Notes under the pieces: generated by a model | What the model saw: only the letters and a program-made list of their open reading frames with translations | Databases searched by the model: none | Told to the model about the DNA's origin: nothing | Assembly: GCA_025964615.1 (NCBI GenBank) | Contig: JAOPYM010000182.1 | Coordinates: 1 to 38,394, forward strand | Direction of reading: 5' to 3' | Source of the DNA: Actinomycetes bacterium | GTDB taxonomy: Bacteria; Actinomycetota; Actinomycetes; Streptosporangiales; Streptosporangiaceae | DNA length: 38,394 nt | Part shown: piece after piece, positions 22,454 to 24,793 of the stretch | Layout: the number at the start of each line of letters is the position of its first letter | Numbering within the stretch: position 1 is the stretch's first letter | Position numbers and translations under genes: made by a program

Positions 22454-23675
<1,222 letters not shown>

Positions 23676-23762
23676 CTCGGTGATCTCCTTCGCGTCGTTC
23701 AGTGCCCGCGCGTGACAACACGGCGGGTACCGGGGGAATTCCAGACAGGTCGGGGACGCGCC

Positions 23763-23825
23763 TCAGCGACAGTCGTACACGACCACGGCGCGAGAGTGCC
23801 CGAACAGGTAGTTCTGCACTGCCAT
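23763..23825 (-). CDS. 20-residue ORF between mec and cysO, candidate cysteine leader peptide
   Basis: The frame reads MAVQNYLFGHSRAVVVYDCR then TGA, with a Cys codon (TGT, rare in this GC-rich DNA) at position 19. It begins five bases after the mec stop. A TAATGT -10-like box, embedded in the end of mec, lies exactly seven bases before the ATG, which would give a leaderless mRNA; AGGGG just before the ATG is a weaker alternative signal. About 87 nt separate its stop from cysO. Cysteine-rich leaderless short ORFs are known as attenuators of cysteine genes in mycobacteria; this one has only a single Cys codon, so the analogy is suggestive. It could also be a functional small protein or chance. 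Confidence 0.5.
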   Translation of the reverse strand: MAVQNYLFGHSRAVVVYDCR

Positions 23826-23830
23826 GACCC

Positions 23831-24247
23831 CTACATTACCGAACCCGAGATGACCACCTCTTCCTCGGTCACCTCACCGTCCAGGATGCGGTACGAACGC
23901 AGCTCCGCGTGCTCGGGGTCACGGGTCGAGACGAGAACGTAGTGCGCGTTCGGCTCGGAGGCGTAGGCGATGTCGGTGCGGGACGGGTAGGCCTCGGTGG
24001 CGGTGTGCGAGTGGTAGATCACGACGGGCTCCTCGTCCCGGTCGTCCATCTCCCGCCAGACCTTCAGCTGCTCCAGCGAGTCGAACCGGTAGAAGGTCGG
24101 CGAGCGCTCAGCGTTGGTCATCGCCACGAACCGCTCCGGCCGGTCCGAGCCGTACGTCCCGGCGATCACACCGCAGGCCTCGTCCGGGTGATCGGCGCGC
24201 GCGTGCGCGACCATCTGGTCCACCAGGGCCTGTGTGATCGTCAGCAT
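23831..24247 (-). CDS. mec: CysO-cysteine peptidase Mec (JAMM/MPN family)
   Basis: 138 residues of the Mov34/MPN/PAD-1 family. The zinc-binding JAMM motif is HSHTATEAYPSRTD, with an upstream catalytic Glu in HPDEACGVIAG. It releases cysteine from the CysO-Cys adduct and so recycles CysO. The start ATG 24247 follows a TAGCCT -10 box by seven bases, suggesting a leaderless mRNA that begins in the 18-nt gap after the DUF2017 gene. The end of the gene (codons GTA ATG TAG) doubles as a second -10-like element for the short ORF downstream. Confidence 0.95.
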   Translation of the reverse strand: MLTITQALVDQMVAHARADHPDEACGVIAGTYGSDRPERFVAMTNAERSPTFYRFDSLEQLKVWREMDDRDEEPVVIYHSHTATEAYPSRTDIAYASEPNAHYVLVSTRDPEHAELRSYRILDGEVTEEEVVISGSVM

Positions 24248-24265: not shown

Positions 24266-24793
24266 TCACCAGAGGCTGCGGACCAGGGTGTCTTGCAGGA
24301 GCCCGAGCCAGTCATAAACGGCGTACAGGGCGTACCTGGGATCGTCCCAGTCGAGTTCCTCGGCCCGCTCGTAGAAGTCCTCGGTGACCTCCAGGCGGGT
24401 GCCGAGCGTGAGACGCAGATCGTTGAGGCAGCGCAGCCAGGCGTGCGCCTGCACGTCGTCGAGGACGATCTTCGTTTCGGCGAGCCCCTTCAGGACGGTC
24501 TCGGCGGCCTCGCGCTTGCCGTCCCGTAGCCCGGATTCGGTGTAGCGCCGGAACTCCCCGGCGGCGTCGGGATCGTCCCGGTATCCGTCGGGGAAGAGCC
24601 TGGCCAGGGCGGGATCCTCGGGTGCCTCGGTGCTCTCGGAGATACCGAGTTCGGCGAGACCGGGGTCGCCCGCGGGCAGCGCCTCCATGAGTTCGAGCAG
24701 CTGCTCGACCAGGCCGCGCAGGACCGCGCCCTCCTCAGGCGCGAGATCCAGGCCGATGCGCCCGTCCCCTACGCGGCGAAATCCGTTAGTCAT
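24266..24793 (-). CDS. DUF2017 family protein
   Basis: 175 residues, acidic, with no signal peptide or membrane segment. [20 protein letters not shown] near the start and the C-terminal [19 protein letters not shown] match the DUF2017 family of actinobacteria. Its start overlaps the end of clpS by eight bases, so the two are coupled. The pairing with the Clp adaptor suggests, without proving, a link to regulated proteolysis. No enzyme motif is visible. Confidence 0.88.

Follow-up and report, generated by a model that had tools for sequence, protein, structure and literature searches.

A conserved short open reading frame with a single rare cysteine codon precedes cysO-cysM in Streptosporangiales and is a candidate cysteine-responsive leader

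The gap between mec and cysO in Streptosporangiales harbors a family of short open reading frames (ORFs) whose best explanation, at a probability that we put at about 0.68, is a cysteine-responsive leader peptide controlling cysO-cysM translation. In sequence comparisons across the order the ORF itself, its TGT cysteine codon, the spacing of its start from a -10 box, an ACGAC element close to the cysO Shine-Dalgarno and a sigma-R-type promoter located between leader and cysO are all conserved, and together they point to a CysO/CysM route that would respond both to cysteine supply and to thiol-oxidative stress.

Results

The window (the whole 38,394-nt stretch of Streptosporangiaceae DNA analysed here, contig JAOPYM010000182.1) carries on its minus strand, on which all of its features described below are located, the gene order clpS, aosR-like, mec, cysO, cysM. 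The neighbor of mec in this series (24266-24793) resembles the oxidative-stress regulator AosR at 97 bits, below the cut-off of 260. The names mec, cysO and cysM assigned in the original prediction proved sound, as the respective products are desampylase-like (23831..24247, stop TAG at 23833-23831), a MoaD/SAMP1-like sulfur carrier (23403..23675) and a member of the CysK/CysM family (22454..23401). Between the mec stop at 23831 and the cysO start at 23675 we find the anticipated 20-codon ORF ending Cys-Arg (23763..23825), which encodes MAVQNYLFGHSRAVVVYDCR and terminates in TGA. Also as anticipated, a TAATGT hexamer (23833..23838) ends 7 nt ahead of its ATG and overlaps the final codons and stop of mec, and the penultimate codon is a TGT (23769..23771), the presumed stall codon. 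The conserved core of the peptide, VQNYLF..VVVYDC, begins at leader codon 3 (GTG, 23819), so that codons 1 and 2 belong to a variable N-terminus. In the proposed scheme cysO and cysM would be the first and second genes controlled, with mec as the upstream gene supplying promoter DNA.

A search with a degenerate DNA pattern that permits either TGT or TGC at the cysteine codon located the leader in 215 of 347 Streptosporangiales genomes and in 32 of the 70 genera of the order, with one copy in each positive genome of this order-wide table and 38% of the genomes without it. The pattern was absent from four genomes of the order's two other families, and among 396 genomes drawn across the phylum it matched the window's own genome only. 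At least 119 contigs were matched; among the matches listed, TGT occupied the cysteine position in all 119, at least 114 of the 119 were followed directly by cysO, and the 80 listed matches with titles derive exclusively from Streptosporangiales genera (Actinomadura, Nonomuraea, Streptosporangium, Microbispora, Planotetraspora, Herbidospora and related genera) or actinobacterial MAGs. Within the family, where Mec was present in all 151 sampled genomes, the same peptide end, (P)VQ-x-(F/Y)-LF-(G/A/S)-H-x4-(V/I)VYDC, was recovered from 57 of the 100 mec-cysO gaps in which cysO could be located. The homologues share the consensus VQx(F/Y)LFxHxxxxVVYDC behind an N-terminus of 1 to 48 residues, and the conserved 17-residue stretch stops at the cysteine codon, beyond which none to about a dozen residues follow that vary in length and sequence. 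Most relatives have one cysteine codon, and the few that have up to three do not carry them contiguously. The peptide found no match in NCBIfam or Pfam and the RNA none in Rfam, neither the window peptide nor any of four relatives could be assigned to an NCBIfam family, and the literature searched, which covered few subscription papers, contained no description of the peptide. The leader is apparently a conserved, undescribed peptide family that recurs beyond chance, and conservation of both the frame and the cysteine, set beforehand as one of the tests that could refute the prediction, was found across the 32 genera.

Constraint on the ORF acts at two levels. Residues V1, Q2, L5, F6 and H8 of the core are nearly invariant as amino acids in 113 distinct cores, with Q2, F6 and H8 fixed by the search pattern and V1 free of it, and the codons for V1, L5 and H8 vary while the residue is kept. 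Over core codons 1-11, dN/dS is 0.21, while the two alternative frames give 2.2 and 0.9. Core codons 13-17, GTC GTC TAC GAC TGT, are in addition constrained at the nucleotide level: the cysteine codon is TGT in 113 of 113 distinct sequences, a set that spans many genera but consists of related loci, so that the counts are not independent. TGT is indeed rare, making up 9.5% of cysteine codons in the flanking genes of relatives, from which codon usage was taken; in contrast to the fixed TGT, His-8 is encoded by CAT in 19 of the 113 cores. The valine codons beside the cysteine codon are nearly always GTC, with GTG nearly as common in genes.

The start of the ORF is constrained in position as well. 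An in-frame ATG (126 loci) or GTG (11 loci) lies 6 or 7 nt after a TANNNT hexamer in 137 of 139 distinct loci, where dinucleotide shuffles predict 1.6, and the ORF is therefore very probably leaderless, in agreement with the original prediction. TAAACT is the commonest -10 among the relatives, and no clear -35 was seen for the leader promoter. This arrangement agrees with the TAnnnT -10 of Streptomyces lividans, a species where leaderless mRNAs make up 17% of transcripts (PMC8079986).

A second, putative promoter, overlooked in the original prediction, is located between the leader and cysO. In the window, a GGAAT -35 (23738..23742) and a GTT -10 core (23717..23719) with an 18-nt spacer form a GGAAT-N18-GTT motif (23742-23717) that matches the sigma-R/SigH pattern. 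Across the family, G(G/A)AA(T/C)-N18/19-GTT is present in 121 of 138 leader-carrying gaps versus 1.4% of shuffles, nearly always as GGAAT-N18-GTT, and a sigma-R-type promoter is also found in 31 of 43 non-carriers. In the same scan, the compact loci L010, L018 and L020 and Herbidospora species retain the leader and lack the promoter. In Mycobacterium tuberculosis, the motif recognised by SigH is GGAAYR-N17-GTT, and mec-cysO-cysM is under direct SigH control (PMC4803200). As sigma-R would initiate downstream of the leader, the resulting transcript would not contain it. Among family members free of the leaderless ORF (L003, L004, L007, L021, L023, L025 and L028), most mec-cysO gaps retain the sigma-R promoter.

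Further downstream, the gap contains a short element complementary to the end of the ORF. In the window this ACGAC (23694..23698) lies 3 nt 5' of the cysO Shine-Dalgarno AAGGAG (23685..23690), with a median of 7 nt across the family, and is the complement of GTCGT in leader codons 15-16 (23779..23783), which correspond to core codons 13-14, the last valine codons of the ORF. Within 60 nt of cysO, 84% of carriers have ACGAC (13% in shuffled sequences) versus 26% of non-carriers (17% shuffled), and k-mers counted de novo across the gap recover it in 116 of 138 cases against 24 expected, together with CGTACG-type words, the Shine-Dalgarno and the sigma-R boxes. The form of the element follows that of the peptide, as HTP-type peptides, which have Pro at core position 10, are accompanied by GACGAC in 86% of cases (15% shuffled) and the other peptide group by CGTA-N0-2-CGAC in 57% (0.6% shuffled), the latter being able to pair additionally with the UACG that follows GUCGU; in non-carriers the two forms reach 7% and 0%. 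Moreover, all six ORFs with GTGGT have ACCAC in the gap, one of them with ACGAC as well, a compensatory change found in both Herbidospora and genus g50, which count as two lineages (Fisher p about 1e-5, ignoring relatedness). The single case of a third GTG lineage, L286, has no ACCAC and retains ACGAT, a wobble complement to the preceding GUCGU. These comparisons provide good support for GUCGU/ACGAC pairing as a predicted feature of the family.

Energy calculations are mixed. A ribosome placed at UGU renders opening of the cysO start region 2.3 kcal/mol cheaper on average over 137 loci, with a gain above 2 kcal/mol in 47% of loci, and the real codons exceed synonymous versions on average, significantly so in a paired test, and individually in 78 of the 137 loci. 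Among loci that possess the element, 47% have a probability above 0.5 that it pairs with the ORF end, and the predicted folds of L010, L182 and L190 contain the ORF-element helix. A whole-segment duplex test with swapped or shuffled partners was weakly informative because other GC-rich pairings dominate the energies, and RNAalifold, applied to the two peptide groups, gave no more than a local hairpin of 4 bp or weak pairs and no convincing long-range consensus, since the spacing between element and Shine-Dalgarno varies and the alignment does not keep the element in register. With a gain of 0.3 kcal/mol and a pairing probability of about 0.26, the prediction for the window's own copy is weak, and the pairing is less supported here than for the family.

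Discussion

These data support a model where RNA polymerase would start at the A of the leader ATG (23825) from the TAATGT box, yielding a leaderless mRNA that carries leader, cysO and cysM. With cysteinyl-tRNA plentiful, the ribosome would pass the single UGU and depart, and the exposed end of the leader ORF could then pair through GUCGU (and, in some lineages, UACG) with ACGAC near the cysO Shine-Dalgarno, lowering cysO initiation. When cysteinyl-tRNA is scarce, we infer that the ribosome would wait at UGU and cover the GUCGU arm, so that the Shine-Dalgarno remains accessible. During thiol-oxidative stress, a second mRNA initiated by sigma-R beyond the leader would lack the GUCGU arm and so escape leader control. 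The proposal that a leader tunes CysO/CysM separately from Mec is supported in part: the conserved ORF, its association with cysO rather than mec and the attenuator-like element all favor it, and the sigma-R promoter would add an input that it did not foresee. Translational coupling through overlapping stop and start codons was considered separately and put aside, because the gap measures 46-252 nt.

The closest functional parallel is provided by the mycobacterial polycysteine attenuators, leaderless short ORFs reported by Canestrari et al. 2020 and described in PMC9031893 and PMC13236596. In both systems a short ORF, leaderless in mycobacteria and very probably so here by its start spacing, precedes a cysteine gene, with a cysteine codon near its end and a proposed stall that would unmask a downstream ribosome-binding site. 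The mycobacterial ORFs feature a contiguous cysteine tract, while the cysO leader has one cysteine codon, lies inside an operon and is separated from its target gene by a sigma-R promoter; as it has no such tract, we propose that it works like a mycobacterial polycysteine leader without being a member of that class. The peptides themselves are unrelated, the cysO leader having no NCBIfam match. In NCBIfam, the mycobacterial polycysteine leaders include NF042933 (Ms5788A) and NF042936 (Ms4527A).

A different family, NF042934 ('putative leader peptide', cis_reg_atten), resembles the cysO leader in being a short leader ORF with a TGT cysteine codon near the C-terminus. Its motif, R.HVDL.R..SA.C, differs from the VQ..LF.H....VVYDC of the cysO leader, and the window peptide gave no match above 27 bits to the NF042934 profile. 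In Streptomyces (genus inferred from gene content), 21 of 24 mec-cysO gaps contain an NF042934 leader, RLHVDLCRLASAIC, recognised by profile in one case (39.6 bits) and by motif in the others, and the last cysteine codon is TGT in 19 of the 21. The two groups differ in promoter position: in Streptosporangiales the sigma-R promoter comes after the leader, whereas in Streptomyces it overlaps the leader's beginning. At L249 (1970-2150) and in other Streptomyces-like gaps, GGAAT-N18-GTT and the start codon of the NF042934 leader overlap, and a sigma-R transcript would therefore begin inside the leader. The genome from which the window derives has four NF042934 leaders above the cut-off and one just below, all five ending in a TGT cysteine codon no more than 4 residues from the stop and four of the five with a single cysteine, which suggests a genome-wide set of cysteine leaders. 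These are found on contigs C128, C185, C512, C247 and C558 (loci L260-L264); by eye, the leader that scores below the cut-off is followed by a sulfite/nitrite reductase-like gene and others by transporter-like or DUF proteins. The original prediction had regarded a single cysteine codon within the operon as a different design, a view that found no support, as the NF042934 leaders of the same genome also end in a TGT cysteine codon, in four of five a single one, and Streptomyces carries such a leader in its mec-cysO gap; a TGT cysteine codon near the stop is accordingly the usual design outside mycobacteria.

Similarities extend to the Streptomyces leaderless leader peptides LeuL, TrpL and ThrL, which likewise combine a TANNNT -10, a leaderless start (very probable here) and a downstream amino-acid gene, but as a rule contain at least two regulatory codons, with TrpL2 having one Trp, and include no cysteine leader (PMC8079986). 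The promoter of cysO-cysM used by sigma-R in Streptomyces and SigH in mycobacteria, with the same GGAAT-N18-GTT upstream of cysO, is already known; here it occurs together with a leader, which a transcript made under stress would bypass. Three features are new: the peptide family itself, its constant location at cysO and the placement of the sigma-R promoter behind the leader.

A single cysteine codon is by itself a weak starvation sensor. A tentative alternative is nascent-chain arrest, in which VQxFLFxHxxxxVVYD in the exit tunnel might hold the ribosome at the cysteine codon or sense cysteine or a related thiol metabolite. It overlaps with the leader explanation, as the downstream effects on cysO would be the same, and differs from a bare codon-starvation sensor. 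The retention of V1, Q2, L5, F6 and H8 despite codon variation at V1, L5 and H8, the dN/dS of 0.21 over core codons 1-11, and a run of 17 conserved residues that ends exactly at Cys behind an N-terminus of 1-48 residues are what a tunnel-acting chain predicts; these codons, however, lie in RNA that possibly folds with cysO, such that part of the conservation could be at RNA level, and NF042934 leaders likewise conserve a motif. The cysO leader could conceivably be a cysteine-sensing arrest peptide, whose chain would sensitise one UGU to cysteine supply and for which the downstream sigma-R promoter would serve as a thiol-stress override.

The remaining readings are less likely. Control of cysO-cysM essentially by the known sigma-R/SigH thiol-stress promoter, to which the leader would add little, accords with GGAAT-N18-GTT being common in both carriers (121 of 138) and non-carriers (31 of 43) and with the direct action of SigH on the M. 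tuberculosis operon, but L010, L018, L020 and Herbidospora species keep the leader without that promoter, and we regard this account as unlikely. Conservation at the protein level and one dedicated locus per genome would suit a small protein conserved for itself and working in trans, yet the ORF essentially always adjoins cysO, its N-terminal length changes freely, its TGT, TAC and GAC codons are fixed as nucleotides and a complementary element co-occurs with it, all of which render a trans product very unlikely. An incidental ORF covering a DNA operator, GTCGTCTACGAC, in which the inverted repeat GTCGT-CT-ACGAC is conserved at DNA level and ACGAC would be a repressor half site, is highly improbable and the least likely of the readings weighed: in lineages with GTGGTC or ATCGTC the repeat is disrupted and the peptide kept, in those with GTGGTC the element downstream has changed so as to fit the ORF arm instead, and conservation extends to the start, the frame and the TGT of the ORF. 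We set the operator aside because the repeat-breaking lineages retain the RNA complement. A cysteine-responsive leader remains the reading that we prefer.

Overall, the leader family reaches across 32 genera of an order that includes many antibiotic producers, and two layers of control are indicated on the CysO/CysM route, cysteine supply through the leader and thiol stress through sigma-R. If the leader reading is true, a single rare cysteine codon and a conserved nascent chain would do the job of the mycobacterial cysteine tract, and two unrelated leaders would occupy the same slot in different orders. If the arrest reading is true, the slot that in Streptomyces holds the unrelated NF042934 leader would here be filled by an arrest peptide devoted to cysteine.
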